Part shown: in pieces, positions 458 through 8,884 of the stretch | How the letters are laid out: every line of letters starts with the position of its first letter | Position numbering within the stretch: position 1 is the stretch's first letter | Assembly: GCA_017436245.1 (NCBI GenBank) | Contig: JAFSDN010000022.1 | Location: 1-37,773 of the forward strand | Direction of reading: 5' to 3' | DNA from: Clostridia bacterium | GTDB lineage: Bacteria > Bacillota > Clostridia > Monoglobales > Monoglobaceae | Length of the DNA stretch: 37,773 nucleotides | Translations under genes and position numbers: made by a program | The notes under the pieces: model-generated | What the model saw: only the letters and a program-made list of their open reading frames with translations | Told to the model about the DNA's origin: nothing | Database searches by the model: none

Positions 458-2197
458 TTAGAATTTAGATCTTGCTGTATAATGTGTGTGCAGGAGTTCG
501 TGTGACTTGTGGCTACCCGGTTTTTCAAGGAATTCTGAGTAGAGAAGCTTGATGTCGGGATTCTCGTGTGATTTACGAACAGGAAGTGATGCATCTTCTG
601 CATAAAGTCCTGCAGCACGCTTTGCCTTCAGATCAATATCCATACGGATGCTTGAATCAACAATTGGCTGACCGCCACCTGTTACACAACCGCCGGGACA
701 AGCCATAACTTCAATGAAGTGATAGTTTGCCTTACCGTCGCGAATATCGTTGAGGAGCTTTCTTGCGTTTCCAAGACCGCTTACAACAGCAACCTTAACT
801 TCTGTACCAGCAACTGTGAGAGTTGCTTCCTTGATACCTTCTGTACCTCTTACTGCTTCATAGTCAAGCTTGTCAAAGGACTTGCCTTCAAGAACTTCAA
901 CAACTGTTCTCAACGCCGCTTCCATAACACCGCCGGTTGCACCAAAGATTACGCCGGCACCGCTTGCTTCTTCAAAGGGATTGTCAAACTTTTCATCAGG
1001 AAGTTTGTTGAAGAGAATACCCGATTCCTTAATCATCTTTGCAAGCTCTCTTGTTGAGATAACTGCATCAACGTCACGGAGGGAGTTCACTTCCATTTCA
1101 GGTCTGCCGGATTCGAACTTCTTAGCTACGCAAGGCATAACTGAAACTACAAACATCTTCTTGGGGTCAATTCCCATCTTTTCAGCATAATAAGTCTTGA
1201 GAATTGCACCAAACATCTGGTGAGGTGACTTACATGATGAAAGATTGTCAAGGAAGTCGGGGAAGTTATGTTCACAGAACTTAATCCAACCGGGGCTGCA
1301 TGATGTAATCATCGGTAGCTTGCCGCCGTTCTGGAGTCTTTCAATGAACTCTGTTCCCTCTTCCATAATTGTAAGGTCTGCACCTGTATCTGTGTCAAAT
1401 ACGCCGTCAAAGCCCATTCTTCTGAGAGCTGCAGCCATTTTACCTGTTACAGGTGTTCCGATTTCGTAACCGAATTCTTCACCAAGACCAACACGAACTG
1501 CAGGAGCAGTCTGAACAACAACGTAACGATCAGGATCGTTGATTGCTGCCCAAACGTCATCGGTGTTATCTTTTTCACGGAGAGCACCTGTGGGGCAAGC
1601 TACGATACACTGACCGCAGTTTACGCAGGGAACTTCGCCAAGTGACTTGTTGAAGGGTGATGCAATTGTTGTTTTGAAGCCTCTTTCTGTTGCATCAATA
1701 ACAGAAACAGTCTGGATTGTTTTACAAGCGCTAACGCAACGACGGCAGAGAACACACTTGTTGTTGTCTCTTACGATTGAAGGTGAAACCTCATCAACGT
1801 CGTATTCGTTTCTTTCGCCCATATATGTGATGTCTGTAACACCAAGCTCATCAGCAAGCTTCTGGAGCTCACAGTTCTGGTTTCTTGCACAAGTCAAGCA
1901 CTTACGGTCGTGGTTTGAAAGGAGAAGCTCAAGATTGATGCGGCGAGCGTCTCTTACCTTCTGTGTGTTTGTGAGAACTTCCATACCTTCAGATACGGGA
2001 TACACACAAGCAGCCTGAAGATTTCTTGCACCTACAACCTCAACAATACACATTCTGCATGAGCCTGTTTTGCTGACGTCTTTCAGATAACAAAGGGTAG
2101 GAATTTCAATACCTACGCTGCGGGCAGCCTCTAAAATAGTGTAGTTTGAAGGAACACTGACAGCCTGTCCGTTGATTTTTATATTAACCATTTCCAT
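458..2197 (-). CDS. hydA: [FeFe]-hydrogenase catalytic subunit, NADH-linked multimeric type
   Basis: Catalytic subunit that interconverts protons and H2 in a cytoplasmic NADH/ferredoxin-coupled hydrogenase. From the ATG at 2197 (579 aa) it has a plant-type [2Fe-2S] domain (C36, C47, C50, C64), a His/Cys [4Fe-4S] site (H96, C100, C103, C109), two bacterial ferredoxin clusters (C148-C158 and C191-C201), then the H-cluster domain with TSCSPGW (298-304), MPCVAKKFE (354-362) and ACPGGC near the C-terminus. Length matches CpI-like enzymes. A GTG at 2206 is in frame, but the GAGGGAGA Shine-Dalgarno sits at the right distance from the ATG at 2197. It is the last gene of the operon, 21 bases after hydB, and is followed by two terminators. 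TSCSP replaces the usual TSCCP. Family and partners are clear; true electron bifurcation is inferred from the neighbours. Confidence 0.95.
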   Translation of the reverse strand: MEMVNIKINGQAVSVPSNYTILEAARSVGIEIPTLCYLKDVSKTGSCRMCIVEVVGARNLQAACVYPVSEGMEVLTNTQKVRDARRINLELLLSNHDRKCLTCARNQNCELQKLADELGVTDITYMGERNEYDVDEVSPSIVRDNNKCVLCRRCVSACKTIQTVSVIDATERGFKTTIASPFNKSLGEVPCVNCGQCIVACPTGALREKDNTDDVWAAINDPDRYVVVQTAPAVRVGLGEEFGYEIGTPVTGKMAAALRRMGFDGVFDTDTGADLTIMEEGTEFIERLQNGGKLPMITSCSPGWIKFCEHNFPDFLDNLSSCKSPHQMFGAILKTYYAEKMGIDPKKMFVVSVMPCVAKKFESGRPEMEVNSLRDVDAVISTRELAKMIKESGILFNKLPDEKFDNPFEEASGAGVIFGATGGVMEAALRTVVEVLEGKSFDKLDYEAVRGTEGIKEATLTVAGTEVKVAVVSGLGNARKLLNDIRDGKANYHFIEVMACPGGCVTGGGQPIVDSSIRMDIDLKAKRAAGLYAEDASLPVRKSHENPDIKLLYSEFLEKPGSHKSHELLHTHYTARSKF

Positions 2198-2218
2198 GTT
2201 ATTCACTCTCCCTCTCTA

Positions 2219-4012
2219 TTATTTCTTGATAATTGCGCCAAACTTACAGCTTTCCATACAAACGCCGCACTTAACGCACTTCTCAGAATCAATTGTGAAG
2301 GGTGATTTGATTTCGCCTGTGATTGCACCAACAGGACACTTCTTTGCACAAAGGCTACAACCCTTACACTTATCTGCAACAATTTCATATTTAACAAGCT
2401 TTTTACATACGCCTGCAGGACAAACCTTGTCACGCACGTGAGCCTCGTATTCATCACGGAAGTACTTGAGAGTACTGAGAACAGGGTTGGGAGCTGTCTG
2501 ACCAAGGCCGCAAAGTGCAGTTGACTTGATGCTGTAGCAAAGCTCTTCCATTCTGTCAAGGTCTTCCATTGTACCGTTACCTGATGTAATCTTCTCAAGG
2601 ATTTCATAAAGTCTCTTTGTACCAACACGGCAGGGTGTACACTTACCGCAGGACTCGTCAACAGTAAATTCAAGGAAGAACTTGGCAATATCAACCATAC
2701 AGTTGTCTTCATCCATAACAATAAGACCACCGGAGCCCATCATTGAACCAATTGCCATAAGCGAATCGTAGTCAATGGGTGTATCAATAAGATGTTCAGG
2801 AATACAACCGCCTGAAGGTCCACCTGTCTGAGCTGCCTTAAACTTCTTGCCATTGGGAATTCCGCCGCCGATTTCTTCAACAATTTCACGGAGAGTTGTT
2901 CCCATGGGAACTTCAACAAGACCTGTATTTTTAATCTTACCGCCAAGAGCAAACACCTTTGTACCCTTGCTCTTTTCTGTACCGATGCTCTTGAACCAGT
3001 CAGCACCGTTGAGAATAATCTGTGTGATATTTGCATAAGTTTCAACGTTGTTGAGGAGTGTGGGCTTCTGCCAGAGACCTGCAACAGCGGGGAAGGGAGG
3101 ACGGGGACGGGGTTCACCGCGGTGACCTTCGATTGATGTGATGAGAGCTGTTTCTTCACCGCACACGAAAGCACCTGCACCAAGACGGATTTCCAAATCA
3201 AAGTCAAAGCCTGATTCAAAAATGTTCTTGCCCAAAAGTCCGTATTCTCTTGCCTGAGCAATTGCAATACCAAGACGCTTAACTGCAATGGGGTACTCTG
3301 CACGGATGTAGATATAACCCTGATTTGCGCCTACTGCATAGCCGGCAATTGCCATAGCCTCAATAACTGCATGGGGGTCACCTTCAAGAATACTTCTGTC
3401 CATGAACGCACCGGGGTCACCCTCATCGGCATTACAAGCAACATACTTCTGCTCGTTCTGTGAATTGTAGGTAAACTGCCACTTCATACCTGTGGGGAAG
3501 CCACCGCCGCCACGGCCACGGAGACCTGATTCCTTAATCACGTCTATAACTTCCTGCGGCTTCATTTCGGTAAGAACCTTACCAAGTGCCTGATAGCCGT
3601 CAATGCCGATGTATTCTTCAATGTCTTCGGGGTTGATAACACCACAGTTACGGAGTGCAACACGCATCTGCTTTTTATAGAAGTCAACTTCGTTAAGACT
3701 CTTGATATTGTCTTCCTCAACAGTTTCAGCATAGAGAAGACGCTTTACAACTCTTCCCTTTACCAGATGCTCTTCAACAATTTCCTTTACATCCTCGGGA
3801 GTAACTCTGCTGTAGAAAGCACCCTCAGGATAAACAATCATAATAGGTCCCAAAGCACAAAGGCCAAAGCAACCTGTCTTTATAACTTTAAACTCTTTTT
3901 CCAAATCATGTGCCGCAAGCTGTGCTTCCATTTCCTTGATGATTGCATCGCAGCCGGAAGACGTACAACCTGTACCGCCGCAGCAAAGAATATGACCTCT
4001 AACCATATCCAT
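2219..4012 (-). CDS. hydB: NADH-binding flavoprotein subunit of [FeFe]-hydrogenase (NuoF-like)
   Basis: This 597-residue NuoF/HndC/HydB-type subunit binds FMN and NAD(H) and passes electrons to HydA. Domains in order: an N-terminal thioredoxin-like [2Fe-2S] domain (CCGGTGC near 10-16 and GCFGLC near 47-52), the NuoF core with the glycine-rich GRGGGGFPTGMKW motif, an SLBB region, the SCGKCTPCRVGT motif for a [4Fe-4S] cluster, and a C-terminal 2x[4Fe-4S] ferredoxin domain (CKGCSLCAKKC and CVKCGVCMESC). This architecture is that of HydB in trimeric bifurcating hydrogenases rather than of complex I. The Shine-Dalgarno upstream of the ATG is weak; a second ATG lies two codons in. It sits between the [2Fe-2S] subunit gene and hydA. 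Confidence 0.95.
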   Translation of the reverse strand: MDMVRGHILCCGGTGCTSSGCDAIIKEMEAQLAAHDLEKEFKVIKTGCFGLCALGPIMIVYPEGAFYSRVTPEDVKEIVEEHLVKGRVVKRLLYAETVEEDNIKSLNEVDFYKKQMRVALRNCGVINPEDIEEYIGIDGYQALGKVLTEMKPQEVIDVIKESGLRGRGGGGFPTGMKWQFTYNSQNEQKYVACNADEGDPGAFMDRSILEGDPHAVIEAMAIAGYAVGANQGYIYIRAEYPIAVKRLGIAIAQAREYGLLGKNIFESGFDFDLEIRLGAGAFVCGEETALITSIEGHRGEPRPRPPFPAVAGLWQKPTLLNNVETYANITQIILNGADWFKSIGTEKSKGTKVFALGGKIKNTGLVEVPMGTTLREIVEEIGGGIPNGKKFKAAQTGGPSGGCIPEHLIDTPIDYDSLMAIGSMMGSGGLIVMDEDNCMVDIAKFFLEFTVDESCGKCTPCRVGTKRLYEILEKITSGNGTMEDLDRMEELCYSIKSTALCGLGQTAPNPVLSTLKYFRDEYEAHVRDKVCPAGVCKKLVKYEIVADKCKGCSLCAKKCPVGAITGEIKSPFTIDSEKCVKCGVCMESCKFGAIIKK

Positions 4013-4057: not shown

Positions 4058-4423
4058 TTATTCAGCAGCACCGATTGTATACTTTGTAACTATACGTCCG
4101 TTAACGATGTGTTCGCTTACGATTTCAGCAGCCTTCTTTTCGTCAACCTTAACATAAGTAACCTTTTCTTCGCCGGGAACCATAACTTCAACAATTGGTT
4201 CCAGACGGCAAACACCGATACAACCTGTCTGTGTAACTGCAACGTGTTCAAGATTTCTCTTTGCAACCTCATCCATAATTGCAGCCAGAACAGGTCTTGC
4301 ACCTGCTGCAATACCGCAGGTAGCCATACCAACAACCACACGAACCGCATGGTCGTCTTTTCTAAGAGTAACATTACCTTTAGCTCTGTTTCTTATTGCT
4401 TCCAGTTCAGCCAAGCTTTTCAT
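4058..4423 (-). CDS. Thioredoxin-like [2Fe-2S] ferredoxin subunit of the hydrogenase (HndB-like)
   Basis: A 121-residue thioredoxin-fold [2Fe-2S] protein like HndB of the Desulfovibrio NADP-reducing hydrogenase. The ligand pattern is visible: a first cysteine in MATCGIAAGA (near 35) and TGCIGVCRLEP (near 67-77). It probably acts as an electron-transfer subunit or accessory of the NuoE/NuoF/HydA complex. GGAGG lies 8 nt before the ATG. It starts 16 bases after the ATPase gene and is followed after 45 bases by hydB, whose N-terminus carries a related domain. Family and context are clear; its exact place in the electron path is not. Confidence 0.9.
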   Translation of the reverse strand: MKSLAELEAIRNRAKGNVTLRKDDHAVRVVVGMATCGIAAGARPVLAAIMDEVAKRNLEHVAVTQTGCIGVCRLEPIVEVMVPGEEKVTYVKVDEKKAAEIVSEHIVNGRIVTKYTIGAAE

Positions 4424-4439
4424 TTTTTATACCTCCATT

Positions 4440-4979
4440 TTAATTCAATTCAGATTCGCCTTCCTTCAAAAATTCAGAAAGCCATAAATAAACCTCGGGA
4501 GCTGTGAATGAAACACCTTCAAGCACGGCTTTCAAATCAGCCGTAACAACTTCGAACTCCTTGTCATTGACCTTATGCCGATAAACAAAATCAATCTGCT
4601 CATAAGATGTGAACAAACCAAGCATCGTGTCAGCCATATCTCCCAAAGGCTGGCGGTCAATGTGACTATATCCAAAAACCGCCCTGACGCAAGTACCCTT
4701 TCCCAACTCCGACTGTATCTCAAAAGAACCGCCGGTGCTTTCAGCCGCATTTTTAAAAAGCGGAATACCAAGACCAACCTTTCGGGTGGTTCGCTTTGTG
4801 GTAAAGGGGTCAATCACTTTTGCGAGGAAATCCTTTGACATGCCGCAGCCGTCATCGTTGATTTCAACCGTCAGTCTGTCAGCCGCAATGTCCTCGTCCA
4901 CAAAAACTTCAATCCTTGTTGCGCCTGCAACAACCGAATTCTGAACAATATCCAGAATGTGAAGTGAAATTTCTCTCAT
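4440..4979 (-). CDS. GHKL-type ATPase in the hydrogenase operon
   Basis: A 179-residue stand-alone histidine-kinase-like ATPase domain. The N-box (DIVQNSVVAGA, with N14), the G1 box (DDGCGM) and the G2 box (GLGIPL) are intact. There is no dimerisation/phosphoacceptor histidine domain, no transmembrane segment and no receiver, so it is not an ordinary sensor kinase. The C-terminal 70 residues have no motif I recognise. It starts 3 bases after the hydC stop with almost no Shine-Dalgarno, which suggests translational coupling to hydC. Related ATPases are found in clostridial hydrogenase operons, where their role is unsettled. A serine/threonine kinase-like or switch-regulator role in assembly or activity is inference. 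Confidence 0.85.
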   Translation of the reverse strand: MREISLHILDIVQNSVVAGATRIEVFVDEDIAADRLTVEINDDGCGMSKDFLAKVIDPFTTKRTTRKVGLGIPLFKNAAESTGGSFEIQSELGKGTCVRAVFGYSHIDRQPLGDMADTMLGLFTSYEQIDFVYRHKVNDKEFEVVTADLKAVLEGVSFTAPEVYLWLSEFLKEGESELN

Positions 4980-4982
4980 AAA

Positions 4983-5474
4983 TTAATCTCTGTACTTTGC
5001 AATAATGCCTTCAACATCATCAACAACCAGTCTGCCGTAAACATCATCGTTTACAGTGAGAACGGGTGCAAGACCGCAGGCACCGATACAACGTGTAGCT
5101 TCAATTGAGAAAAGACCGTCGGGAGTACATTCGCCAACCTCAATTCCCAGAATTTCCTTAATCTTTTCCAAAATATCACCCGAACCCTTAACGTAACAAG
5201 CAGTACCCAGACATACGCCGATATGATACTTGCCCTTGGGGTTAAGTGAAAACTGAGTGTAAAATGTAACAATACCGTAAATTTCTGCCAGCGGCACATC
5301 AAGACCCTCAGAAATCATCTCCTGAACCTCGATGGGAAGATAACCGTAAATTTCCTGTGCCTTGTGCAGTACAGGAATTACTGCACCGTCTACATCCTTG
5401 TGTTCTGCAATGACAGCCATGAGCTGTTCTTCCTGTTCCTTTGTGCCGTTGAATGGAAGTGTTTTCTTTTCCAT
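4983..5474 (-). CDS. hydC: NuoE-like [2Fe-2S] subunit of NADH-linked hydrogenase
   Basis: This 163-residue protein is the 24-kDa NuoE/HndA/HydC-type subunit. It has an N-terminal helical part and a thioredoxin-like [2Fe-2S] domain with the four-cysteine pattern CLGTAC and CIGACGLAP in the C-terminal half. It partners with the FMN-bearing HydB. It is the first gene of the operon. Two purine-rich stretches precede the ATG (AGGAGG, then AAGGAG). Transcription most likely starts from the consensus promoter at 5560-5588, with a Rex-like operator across its -35 region. Confidence 0.95.
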   Translation of the reverse strand: MEKKTLPFNGTKEQEEQLMAVIAEHKDVDGAVIPVLHKAQEIYGYLPIEVQEMISEGLDVPLAEIYGIVTFYTQFSLNPKGKYHIGVCLGTACYVKGSGDILEKIKEILGIEVGECTPDGLFSIEATRCIGACGLAPVLTVNDDVYGRLVVDDVEGIIAKYRD

Positions 5475-5559
5475 TTCTCCTTTACCTCCTACCTTAATTT
5501 ATGTCACCAAAGCCGACAAAAGCCGACCCATAACATTCTTTTTACGCCTTACTCAACAC

Positions 5560-5588
5560 ATTATAACACATTGTTAAATTTATGTCAA
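5560..5588 (-). promoter_or_regulatory. Consensus sigma-A promoter of the hydrogenase operon
   Basis: On the minus strand, TTGACA (5583-5588) is followed by exactly 17 bases and TATAAT (5560-5565). Both hexamers match the vegetative consensus fully. The promoter lies about 90 bases upstream of the hydC start, leaving a 5' leader in which I see no clear riboswitch or terminator. Confidence 0.85.
5571..5588. promoter_or_regulatory. Rex-like operator overlapping the -35 box
   Basis: The 18-bp sequence TTGTTAAATTTATGTCAA resembles the Rex redox-repressor consensus TTGTTAA-N4-TTAACAA. The left half is perfect (7/7) and the right half matches 4/7. It covers the -35 hexamer and the spacer of the hydC promoter. 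Rex binds when NAD+ is high relative to NADH and represses fermentative genes, so this would link hydrogenase expression to NADH. Rex itself is not in the window. Confidence 0.5.
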
Positions 5589-5654
5589 TCAGACGTACAT
5601 TAAAATTATATCAAAAAAGTGAATAAAAATCTACAATTTGACAAAAATAGTTTG

Positions 5655-6353
5655 TTAAAACTTGCACAAAAATCCCAATATTTTTTGTGTATTTTTATTT
5701 TCTTCATCAATGAACCGTTCACGTTCTGAAATATTCTCCAGATAATGAGCATCCGAATCCGTTATAATTCCAAAATCCGCATACTGCTTACCAAAAGTTT
5801 CAAGACCCCTTGAGGTTATTTCAAGTCCGTCAACATATAAATCCGGCGGCAAAAAACCAAGGTTTGCAGTAACACTGTAGCTTGATTTGTCAATATGGGC
5901 AGGAATAAACAAACCGCCACGCTTTTTTGTTTCCGCAGAAACCTCATAGATGTCCATATCCAAAGCATTTACAAGGAGATTTTCCTCTTCTCCGATTATT
6001 TCATCCTGTGAATTCATAACAAGCTGTCTGCCAAAAATTTCGGGCTGATTTTTTATTCCCGTCATTTTTGCACGCACATATTCCCCCATGTCTTCTGCCG
6101 AATCAATATCAGGGAACAAACACAGCGTATGAACTTCCTCCGCCGTTGTTACTTCCATTCCCGGAACAACCTTAACAACACCTTTTCCCGCTTCCATAAC
6201 CGCACGGGCATTCAAACAGGAATTATGGTCGGATATGGCAATTATGTCAAGACCTTTTATGTACGCCATATTCACAATGTTGTTTGGGGTCATGTCATCA
6301 TCACCGCAAGGCGACAATGCAGAATGAATATGCAAATCATAATATAGCTTCAT
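5655..6353 (-). CDS. PHP-domain metal-dependent phosphoesterase
   Basis: A 232-residue PHP-domain protein, a trinuclear-metal phosphoesterase fold related to histidinol phosphatase and the DNA polymerase III PHP domain. Metal-binding motifs are complete: DLHIHSALSPCGDDD (H8, H10), ISDHN, GMEVTTAEEVH, PAHID and DSDAH. The protein lacks extra domains. Its start overlaps the stop of the DRTGG gene by 4 bases (ATGA), so the two are translationally coupled. The context, beside a sensory-type hydrogenase, two DRTGG proteins and an RsbW-like ATPase, suggests a signalling phosphatase or nucleotide hydrolase; the substrate is unknown. No terminator follows, so its transcript may continue into the hydrogenase operon. 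Confidence 0.88.
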   Translation of the reverse strand: MKLYYDLHIHSALSPCGDDDMTPNNIVNMAYIKGLDIIAISDHNSCLNARAVMEAGKGVVKVVPGMEVTTAEEVHTLCLFPDIDSAEDMGEYVRAKMTGIKNQPEIFGRQLVMNSQDEIIGEEENLLVNALDMDIYEVSAETKKRGGLFIPAHIDKSSYSVTANLGFLPPDLYVDGLEITSRGLETFGKQYADFGIITDSDAHYLENISERERFIDEENKNTQKILGFLCKF

Positions 6354-6682
6354 ATTCCCATCTCCGAAAGCCGTACCGCCAGTTCATAAGCCGACATTTC
6401 ACTTCCAAGAATGATTATCTCCTGCTCCTTTGCACGTTCCACCGTCTTTTCATCAGGCACACACCCGTCGGCAAGAATAATGCATCCTGCGTCAGCAAGA
6501 GAGGCCACAGCAACAATATTCACATTTGTCTGAATTGTTATCCAGACATAATCCATCTGAACCTTTGACATTGCAAGGCTCAACAAATCACCTATGTAAC
6601 AGCCCTTTGCTGTTTTTTCGGCATATTCTTCACCTGCATAAAATTTCAGCCCAAGTTTACTGGCAATTTCTCTAACATTCAT
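6350..6682 (-). CDS. DRTGG-domain protein, second copy
   Basis: A 110-residue single-domain DRTGG protein. DRTGG domains occur beside CBS domains and in phosphotransacetylase-type proteins and are thought to be ligand-sensing; their exact role is unknown. The fold signature is seen as the N-terminal MNVREIASKLGLKFYAG, the central hydrophobic VNIVAVASLADAGCIILADG segment and the C-terminal ELAVRLSEMGI helix. It begins directly after the sensory hydrogenase stop codon (no gap) and overlaps the PHP gene by 4 bases. A paralogue lies at 8501-8884 on the other side of the hydrogenase, so the pair may form a heteromeric sensor. Confidence 0.82.
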   Translation of the reverse strand: MNVREIASKLGLKFYAGEEYAEKTAKGCYIGDLLSLAMSKVQMDYVWITIQTNVNIVAVASLADAGCIILADGCVPDEKTVERAKEQEIIILGSEMSAYELAVRLSEMGI

Positions 6683-7999
6683 TCAATTTCCCTCCTGTTT
6701 GTTTGTCTGGGGTAAATGCATATTCAGGTTTTCAAGCTCAATCATGTCATGAGCAAGGGCACTGACCTTTTCCCTCAGCTTGAAAATACAATCTGTTTCC
6801 CGTGCATAGCCTCTGACAATATCCTCCGCAAGAGCACGACAGCTGGGCGAACCGCAGGAGCCGCAGTCAATTTTTGGAAAACCTTCATAAATTTCCTCAA
6901 TTTTCATCATTTTTTGCATTGCAACATTAATATCAGAGTCAAGATTCATTATGGGGCGATACACGATTGACTCATCCCAGAACATCTTTATTGTTTCATC
7001 AAAGGGCAACATTCCGTCATCAAGTCCTTTGCATATTCTCTGAATTTTTGAACGTGCCGAAAAGCTGTTTTCAGCGGTCAAAGGCCCGCCAACGCATCCG
7101 CCGGGGCACGCCAATGCCTCAACATAATCAATGTCGCCGTGCTTACCGTCTTCAATTTCTTCAAATAATTTGATAACATTATGTATTTCATCAACAGCAA
7201 TTACCTTTTCGGCACCGGAGCTTTCAGCCTCACCGCCGCTGGTTGCCCAGATAACTCCCGATTTACCCGCATTGCGAAGCTCACGAACATTTTCTTCTGC
7301 AATCTTATTTACTGACCTTGACATTTTTATGCAAATACTTTTGATTGGAATTACCCCATCGACCTCTGATTTTTTTACAGTATAATTTCCTTTTACAAAG
7401 GTTGCCTTTGCAGCACAGGGACTTATGAAAAATACGCCTATTTCTTCAGGCTTTAATCCCGATTTTTTCACAGCCTCAATACGCGCCTGTTCAGCAGAAA
7501 TCTCCATTGGCGACTTGAGGGGCACAATATTTGCAATCAGATTCGGAAACTTGATTGCAATCAGTCTCAGAACCGCAGGACAGGCAGATGAAATTGCAGG
7601 CTTCATAAGCTCGCCCGATGCCAGGAGCTCCTTTGTCTTTTCGGTCACAACCTGAGCCCCCCGTGCAACCTCAAAAACATCATCAAAGCCCAAATCAAGC
7701 AAGGCACTGAGTATAACATCAACGCTCTCTGTTTTTGAAAACTGCCCGTAAAACGCAGGTGCAACCAATGCAACATTATATTTAAATTCCTTAAGCATTT
7801 CAAGTGAATCGGCAACTGCCTTTTTCGCATGATACGGACAAACTCTGATACATTCCCCACAGTCAATACAACGTTCCTTCAGGATTTTCGCCTTACCCTT
7901 CTGAACACGAATGGCTTGTGTGGGGCAATGCTTCAGACAATTTGTACAACCCTTGCACAAATCTCTGTCCAACGTAACCGAATGCCAATATGTCTCCAT
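6683..7999 (-). CDS. Putative sensory [FeFe]-hydrogenase (group C/D type)
   Basis: A 438-residue [FeFe]-hydrogenase homologue built differently from hydA. It has an N-terminal two-cluster ferredoxin domain (C15, C18, C21, C25 and C44, C47, C50, C54), the H-cluster domain with altered motifs SSACPA (C140), SPCAAK (C195) and ACPGGC (C298, C302), and a C-terminal [4Fe-4S] domain (C379, C382, C387, C404). Alanine stands where catalytic enzymes have the proton-relay cysteine before the ligand cysteine; this is the hallmark of the slow, putatively H2-sensing groups C and D. No PAS domain is present, which fits group D better. Neighbours are signalling genes (RsbW-like ATPase, two DRTGG proteins, PHP). 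Sensing rather than H2 turnover is inferred from these features. Confidence 0.88.
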   Translation of the reverse strand: METYWHSVTLDRDLCKGCTNCLKHCPTQAIRVQKGKAKILKERCIDCGECIRVCPYHAKKAVADSLEMLKEFKYNVALVAPAFYGQFSKTESVDVILSALLDLGFDDVFEVARGAQVVTEKTKELLASGELMKPAISSACPAVLRLIAIKFPNLIANIVPLKSPMEISAEQARIEAVKKSGLKPEEIGVFFISPCAAKATFVKGNYTVKKSEVDGVIPIKSICIKMSRSVNKIAEENVRELRNAGKSGVIWATSGGEAESSGAEKVIAVDEIHNVIKLFEEIEDGKHGDIDYVEALACPGGCVGGPLTAENSFSARSKIQRICKGLDDGMLPFDETIKMFWDESIVYRPIMNLDSDINVAMQKMMKIEEIYEGFPKIDCGSCGSPSCRALAEDIVRGYARETDCIFKLREKVSALAHDMIELENLNMHLPQTNKQEGN

Positions 8000-8075
8000 A
8001 ACAGTTCACAGCCTTTCTGCCCGCATAAATTTTAACGCATCTGTGTTGCGGGCAACACAATTGACTACTCCTTCA

Positions 8076-8504
8076 TCAAGCATTAAACTCAAGGGTTACC
8101 GTTGTTCCTTTTCCCAGTTCGGTTTCAATATTCAATCCATCTGAATACTTTTTCATGTTAGGCAGTCCCATACCTGCACCAAACCCCAATTCACGAACAG
8201 AATGGTCGGCAGTTGAAAAGCCTTCAGTCATAGCCATATCAAGGTCAGGAATACCCGGACCAACATCCTTCATTACAACAGTTATTTTTTCAGGCGCAAT
8301 TGCAACATCAATCTCTCCGCCGTCAGCATGGATAACCATATTGATTTCACCCTCATACATGGCAATTGCCACCTTGCGCACAACCTCGGGATTAAAACCC
8401 AGTTGATTCAGAGTCTTTTTCACCTTGCTTGACGTTTCTCCTGCACGGGTAAAATCATCACCGTTCACCTCATAATGCAGCTTCATAAGCTCAGCCACAA
8501 TCAC
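8076..8504 (-). CDS. RsbW-like anti-sigma/serine kinase ATPase
   Basis: A 142-residue GHKL ATPase of the anti-sigma regulatory factor (RsbW/SpoIIAB) class. The N-box (YEGEINMVIHA near 50-60), the G1 box (DVGPGI) and the G2 box (GFGAGMGLPNM) are present, and the C-terminal strand GKGTTVTLEF is typical. There is no cognate sigma factor, anti-anti-sigma or phosphatase gene beside it. Its start overlaps the upstream DRTGG gene by 4 bases. A 76-base gap with a TGTGTTGC/GCAACACA inverted repeat (8042-8059) separates it from the sensory hydrogenase. It may phosphorylate or sequester a partner in response to the hydrogenase; that is inference. Confidence 0.87.
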   Translation of the reverse strand: MIVAELMKLHYEVNGDDFTRAGETSSKVKKTLNQLGFNPEVVRKVAIAMYEGEINMVIHADGGEIDVAIAPEKITVVMKDVGPGIPDLDMAMTEGFSTADHSVRELGFGAGMGLPNMKKYSDGLNIETELGKGTTVTLEFNA

Positions 8505-8884
8505 ACCTCCTTTTCGTCACCTGTGAGACCCTCATTATACAAGCGTCCGCAGGCAACATACATGGTGTGTGCAGTGGTAAGAATTGCAATCCCTTTTGCT
8601 TCTGCCAATGCAATAACATTTTCGTCCGGCTGTTTGCCTCTCACAAACACAATTGCAGAAATATCCATCATTTCTGCCGTCCTTACAACCTGCGGATTTA
8701 CCAGACCCGTAAGAAGCAAAACCCTGTCATTGACAAATGCAAGCACGTCACTCATCAGGTCGCTGCCAAAAGCGGAATCAACATCTGTTTCAAGCATATC
8801 CGCACCTGTCAAAACCTCTGCATCAAGAATTTCTTTAATTTTTGATAATTTCATAATCTTCTCCGTTCTGTCGCCAACCGACAT
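8501..8884 (-). CDS. DRTGG-domain protein, first copy
   Basis: A 127-residue DRTGG protein, paralogous to the one at 6350-6682. The family-like region begins at MKLSKIKEILDAEVLTG, encoded from an ATG at 8854 that has its own GGAG 6 nt upstream. The longer start at 8884 also has a good site (AAAGGA, 7 nt), and I keep it because it sits 4 bases after dinB as expected in an operon. The true start could be either. The C-terminal half (ISAIVFVRGKQPDENVIALA) is the conserved DRTGG core. It overlaps the RsbW-like gene by 4 bases, so the pair is probably co-translated. Confidence 0.85.
   Translation of the reverse strand: MSVGDRTEKIMKLSKIKEILDAEVLTGADMLETDVDSAFGSDLMSDVLAFVNDRVLLLTGLVNPQVVRTAEMMDISAIVFVRGKQPDENVIALAEAKGIAILTTAHTMYVACGRLYNEGLTGDEKEV

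Follow-up and report, generated by a model that had tools for sequence, protein, structure and literature searches.

How might a putatively sensory [FeFe]-hydrogenase pass on its signal to the metabolic hydrogenase encoded beside it? The question is raised by five tightly packed genes on the minus strand of a contig from a Clostridia bacterium of the family Monoglobaceae (assembly GCA_017436245.1, contig JAFSDN010000022.1; the whole stretch of 37,773 nucleotides, referred to here as the window, makes up contig C5 of its genome, which totals 1.8 Mb in 120 contigs and is 74% complete). In order of transcription the genes encode a DRTGG-domain protein (DRTGG1, 8501..8884), an RsbW/SpoIIAB-like GHKL ATPase (RsbW, 8076..8504), the hydrogenase (HydS, 6683..7999), a second DRTGG protein (DRTGG2, 6350..6682), and a PHP-family phosphoesterase (PHP, 5655..6353). 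A sequence-only reading had proposed them as an H2-sensing relay, and the reading frames and Pfam matches confirm all five at the positions it gave. We put at about even the chances that these genes form a signalling module for redox/H2 sensing that tunes the adjacent electron-bifurcating hydrogenase; in a few lineages the module adjoins the Rnf complex instead.

A group D sensory hydrogenase near a bifurcating hydrogenase operon is already described. New here are natural gene fusions defining two arms, a sixth gene, and a linkage to the gene of the NADH sensor Rex. In the literature searched, which most subscription papers lie outside, we found neither the module as a whole nor the DRTGG pair, the PHP protein, the fusions, or the rex linkage described, and searches on DRTGG or PHP together with hydrogenase did not return the module.

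Conservation of the module and identity of its hydrogenase

Using profiles built for this analysis, we annotated 371 distinct HydS loci, collected from one genome scan (80 loci) and from whole-genome searches. Of the 325 distinct loci with enough flanking sequence, 272 have the complete order DRTGG1-RsbW-HydS-DRTGG2-PHP; no other relative order was found among these 325, the remaining loci being truncated or gene-poor versions. Since the HydS proteins of homologous loci are mostly 40-60% identical to that of the window, the gene order exceeds chance, and the conservation that the sequence-only reading had suggested surveying is borne out. Among the genomes sampled, 138 of 291 from the same class and 135 of 348 from the phylum have HydS-type genes, and many of these genomes come from the rumen and gut; these counts, together with the conserved order, rule out an oddity of a single clade. 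The hydrogenase operon adjoins the module, in tandem, split or divergently, in 133 of 169 loci with long flanks: it lies downstream of the module in 107, is interrupted by it in 14, diverges from it in 10, and is otherwise placed in 2. RnfC-like genes were found in 12 loci, seven of which have the gene no more than 2.5 kb downstream from HydS; one was checked as RnfC.

HydS (438 amino acids; Fe_hyd_lg_C 1e-36, FeS (PF04060) 1e-11, Fer4) comprises an N-terminal domain with two [4Fe-4S] clusters, an H-domain, and a C-terminal FeS domain; a Pfam scan of the protein gave no PAS match. The replacement of the proton-relay cysteine by alanine and the extra C-terminal FeS domain, both noticed in the sequence-only reading, hold up on comparison. 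The position of C299 in CpI corresponds to Ala139 in the window protein and is filled by Ala (76%) or Ser (17%), and never by Cys, across 364 homologs, while the M353 position (S193 here) is Thr in 50% and Ser in 49%. The C-terminal domain contains the motif C379-x2-C382-x4-C387-x16-C404, which is 100% conserved, as are the H-cluster cysteines C140, C195, C298, and C302 and all accessory-cluster cysteines. Judged by residues and architecture, HydS is a putatively sensory group D (M2e-type) enzyme. As these features match those given for group D/M2e enzymes and for TamHydS of Thermoanaerobacter mathranii (PMC8163306, PMC11803613, PMC13104023), the hydrogenase is already known in kind.

TamHydS is slow, putatively sensory, and devoid of the proton-relay cysteine (PMC8163306, PMC11803613), and an H2-induced structural change as well as slow H2 turnover have been reported for it. 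It resembles the window protein in domain layout, absence of PAS, the C299 to Ala and M353 to Ser/Thr replacements (the latter in 99% here), the Cx2Cx4Cx16C C-terminus, and the conserved D378/E392/D393/D403, as well as in the downstream bifurcating hydrogenase and the adjoining histidine-kinase-like ATPase; however, T. mathranii is reported to have a flanking AraC regulator (PMC8163306, PMC13104023), and none was seen in the window. A sensory role for M2e/group D enzymes was proposed earlier on the grounds that they are encoded close to kinases and bifurcating hydrogenases (PMC3561251), and H2 sensing by the window HydS would be of the same putative kind as in TamHydS. The sequence-only reading had stated that signal passage in groups C and D is not known to have been described; for group D, papers of 2020 and 2026 still treat it as open (PMC8163306, PMC13104023). 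The group C (M2f) proteins TmHydS, R. albus HydS, and HfsB likewise combine an H-domain with a C-terminal FeS domain and are encoded near hydrogenase genes. Regulation is supported genetically for hfsB, whose deletion alters adhE expression and fermentation (PMC5707799). Group C enzymes have a fused PAS domain and, in the hfs operon, a serine-phosphatase-like HfsC, whereas the window has no PAS and instead an RsbW-type ATPase and DRTGG proteins.

Gene fusions and partner proteins

Natural fusions connect the members of the module pairwise, each of which argues for a functional or physical link but does not prove it. DRTGG1 and RsbW are joined in single frames in 8 loci of one annotation set and 17 of another, partly from the same genomes and mainly within one order, with L355 in addition. 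RsbW is fused to HydS in L367, HydS to DRTGG2 in L272 and L288, PHP to a second GHKL ATPase (HATPase2) in L320, L324, L327, L328, and L347, and HATPase2 to a thioredoxin-like subunit in L317. By their composition the fusions suggest two arms and a sixth gene. A first fusion search, covering L003-L082, found none; long frames in these loci, considered as candidates, looked like start-site over-extension and were rejected.

HATPase2 is encoded within the hydrogenase operon of the window (4440..4979, minus strand; HATPase_c 5e-16) and was not counted by the sequence-only reading. Besides the fusions, its gene directly follows PHP in 36 loci, and in 12 of these no hydrogenase operon was seen; we therefore count HATPase2 as a probable sixth member. 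At the other extreme, DRTGG2 is the only module member kept beside HydS in L332, L335, L337, and L351, and the gene row of L337 is HydS-DRTGG2-Trx-NuoE-NuoF-HydA.

DRTGG1 (127 amino acids as listed, with a possible start at M11) matches the Pfam DRTGG family at 2.5e-8, and DRTGG2 (110 amino acids) at 5e-5, just under the Pfam cut-off. Their AlphaFold2 models have a mean predicted local distance difference test of 88.9 and 98.2, respectively; the best match of DRTGG1 in the PDB is the DRTGG structure 2ioj (Z 17.2, root mean square deviation 1.9, 114 residues aligned), which DRTGG2 also matches (Z 15.8, 1.9, 109 aligned), and no STAS fold is among the structure matches listed for DRTGG1. For both proteins the models thus show the DRTGG fold with confidence. 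They share it with the DRTGG domains of AF1212 and CBS-pyrophosphatase (Z 14-17) and with the N-terminal domain of HPr kinase/phosphatase (Z 9-13), but differ in being stand-alone proteins of 110-127 amino acids with their own invariant motifs, DLMS/DLLS and TGL. Among homologs, S45 of DRTGG1, located at a helix start, is 100% and D42 99% conserved; in DRTGG2, D32, S35, T49, and N55 are invariant (100%).

The residues E51, N55, D80, G84, T98, G107, and G111 of RsbW (142 amino acids; HATPase_c 6.4e-12, HATPase_c_2 3e-9), which form a GHKL ATP site with a catalytic Glu, are 100% conserved. In PHP (PF02811, 7e-7) the same is true for H8, H10, D42, H43, E67, H75, H153, D201, and H203, so that the His/Asp/Glu metal ligands are complete, and the nearest named families match it only far under cut-off. 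HATPase2 also keeps its active-site residues. Judged by residues, all three appear catalytically competent; their kinase and phosphatase activities and the substrates considered below are putative.

Promoter, Rex and neighbouring regulators

The minus-strand run of the window reads dinB-[DRTGG1-RsbW-HydS-DRTGG2-PHP]-gap-nuoE-HATPase2-trx-nuoF-hydA, dinB being named from its sequence. The gap between PHP and nuoE (5475..5654) contains a perfect sigma-A-type promoter, TTGACA-17-TATAAT, at 5588-5560 on the minus strand, overlapped by a Rex-type site TTGACATAAATTTAACAA that agrees with TTGTTAANNNNTTAACAA in 11 of 14 positions. Rex-type operators (at least 11/14) occur in this gap in 52% of 163 loci, compared with 9% of shuffled sequences and 2% of the coding control; as they mark the gap, transcription of the hydrogenase operon probably starts from a promoter of its own. 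DNA affinity purification sequencing identified clo1313_1885-1881, the hydrogenase operon of C. thermocellum, as a Rex target with Rex bound upstream, and an electrophoretic mobility shift assay validated the motif (PMC8457756). The sequence-only reading had noted that the module ends without a terminator and might be co-expressed with the operon. Indeed, the gap yielded no minus-strand terminator, but the step to co-expression is weak in view of the promoter and Rex-type site there. Co-transcription of module and operon is therefore unlikely as a rule, given the operon's own Rex-type promoter and the C. thermocellum operon being itself a Rex target.

In 25 loci a rex gene lies next to the module, on its upstream side in 19 and on its downstream side in 6; in one further locus, L361, it is 4.7 kb away. 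In L282, L298, and L303, the sole fusion loci measured, it overlaps the DRTGG1-RsbW frame by 4 bp. The genome of the window also has a rex-type gene. Close upstream of RsbW-HydS, an OmpR-type response regulator is encoded in 8 loci; CheW is found close upstream in 9. By position, OmpR-family regulators (L266, L405, L413, L415) and CheW proteins (L405, L407, L410, L275) occupy the usual place of DRTGG1 or lie upstream of it.

The operon following the promoter consists of genes for a nuoE-like thioredoxin-like [2Fe-2S] subunit (4983..5474; PF01257 6e-52), HATPase2, a small thioredoxin-like [2Fe-2S] subunit (4058..4423; PF01257 0.0016, under cut-off) whose homolog is the one fused to HATPase2 in L317, a nuoF-like flavin subunit (2219..4012; PF01512, PF10589), and the catalytic subunit HydA (458..2206), all on the minus strand. 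By gene content, the nuoE-, nuoF-, and hydA-type genes together represent the layout of an electron-bifurcating [FeFe]-hydrogenase operon. Two Fe_hyd_lg_C genes were found in the genome, HydS and HydA, the latter being its best match (1.4e-106). Within the module, DRTGG2 and PHP overlap by 4 bp, HydS abuts DRTGG2, and 76 bp separate RsbW from HydS. RsbW and DRTGG1 overlap by 4 bp as listed, an overlap that may vanish, since a GTG at about 8498, downstream of AGGAGG (by eye), is the more likely RsbW start.

Proposed mechanism, its rivals and variant loci

In the signalling reading, HydS would bind H2 at its slow H-cluster and change conformation. DRTGG2, the closest partner of HydS and its proposed docking partner, would couple it to the RsbW-type ATPase, which would act with DRTGG1, its proposed partner, as a single unit, the kinase arm. 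PHP and HATPase2 would form a second, opposing arm that contacts the hydrogenase complex itself, as the fusion of HATPase2 to a thioredoxin-like subunit in one genome hints. The output would converge with Rex on the nuoE promoter and, in a few lineages, plausibly pass through the OmpR-type response regulator. We infer in which direction and by what chemistry each protein-protein step would run, that the partners carry the signal, and any action on Rex. In the regulatory [NiFe]-hydrogenase system HoxBC-HoxJ-HoxA, a sensor devoted to H2 acts through a signalling cascade on the genes of an energy-converting hydrogenase. The likeness is in working principle; the enzyme is unrelated, and the signal, as is generally known, passes via HoxJ and HoxA (see also PMC5707799). 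In its full form, as a two-armed H2 relay with DRTGG proteins in place of PAS/STAS domains, a DRTGG1-RsbW kinase arm on HydS-DRTGG2, a PHP-HATPase2 counter-arm on the hydrogenase complex, and H2 and NADH (Rex) sensing integrated at one operon, the scheme is tentative and less likely than not. The fusions turn the question of group D signalling into named binary interactions, and the putative link of H2 sensing to Rex would bear on yields of H2, ethanol, and methane in fermentation and in the rumen.

Several observations weigh against this reading. The hydrogenase operon was not seen within about 5 kb of the module in 36 of the 169 long-flank loci. The fusions are mostly clade-level, and the number of independent fusion events is consequently small. 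In paired coevolution analysis, the mean-field and pseudo-likelihood methods (effective number of sequences about 100-240) agreed on L48-R43 as the top DRTGG1-RsbW pair, but unrelated protein pairs reached Z scores just as high. The serines invariant in the DRTGG proteins could be general to the fold rather than phosphosites. Finally, the C-terminal cluster of TamHydS is not reduced by H2 (PMC13104023), which disfavours an electron relay through the HydS C-terminus to the DRTGG pair.

Alternatively, the module could act post-translationally, modifying or assembling the bifurcating hydrogenase (or Rnf) complex, with HATPase2 and PHP working on its subunits in a kinase/phosphatase-like manner gated by HydS. 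The location of HATPase2 inside the structural operon, the fusions of its homologs to a thioredoxin-like subunit and, in five loci, to PHP, the insertion of the module between nuoE and HATPase2 in 14 long-flank loci, and the HydS-DRTGG2 pair directly in the hyd operon of L337 would all suit such a controller. Nevertheless, we regard it as unlikely, since the rex genes, response regulators, and Rex-type operators by the module point at least partly to transcription. Partner switching of the SpoIIAB/RsbW type, where RsbW would sequester a sigma factor or phosphorylate Ser45 of DRTGG1 as SpoIIAB does SpoIIAA, with PHP as the phosphatase, agrees with the fold and ATP-site residues of RsbW, whose closest solved relative is SpoIIAB (1th8), with its invariant catalytic Glu and N-box, and with the fully conserved S45 at a helix start; the serine-phosphatase-like HfsC of the group C hfs operon offers a parallel (PMC11837493). 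However, RsbW stays under the NCBIfam equivalog cut-offs (TIGR01925, spIIAB: 8.5e-14, 51.6 bits against 135; PRK04069: 19.9 bits against 145), and DRTGG1, like DRTGG2 of DRTGG fold, best matches DRTGG proteins and HPr-kinase N-termini; the serine is possibly a general trait of DRTGG domains. Moreover, no sigma-factor gene was recognized among the neighbors read, and we consider partner switching rather improbable. Inspection by eye of the window's reading frames, nine of which were Pfam-scanned, showed no recognizable STAS antagonist or sigma-factor gene; one STAS gene is found elsewhere in the genome, on contig C71. Least likely would be a HydS that works catalytically at low flux or buffers redox state, its neighbors being accessory or metabolic and no signal being passed. 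TamHydS does still turn over H2 (PMC8163306), and HydS-like genes precede the Rnf operon without partners in L205 and L211, but with ATPase, DRTGG, and PHP partners, and rex or response-regulator genes nearby, this explanation is very unlikely compared with the signalling module preferred here.

The HydS-like gene of L205 and L211 (about 5995-7250, oriented) retains the cluster cysteines and is located at the expected place of rnfC, about 0.5-1 kb before rnfD-, rnfG-, rnfE-, and rnfA-like genes. Two HydS matches per genome were detected in G338, G483, G507, G531, G601, G492, G657, G659, and G660, several of the second copies being without most of the module. In L267, a second hydrogenase-like protein (L267:2-1234:-) is encoded beside a group D HydS. 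Its L1 motif is altered, it carries a Cys motif at the C-terminus, and it possibly belongs to group C; the locus ends before a PAS region would come into view. DRTGG1-like genes also occur in genomes of the phylum sample without a HydS match (for example G321, G435, G631, and G409), with three copies each in G435 and G631. Judged by eye, HydS copies stand beside MRP/MinD-type ATPases in L390 and L379 and, in L390, also beside an aldehyde ferredoxin oxidoreductase-like gene.

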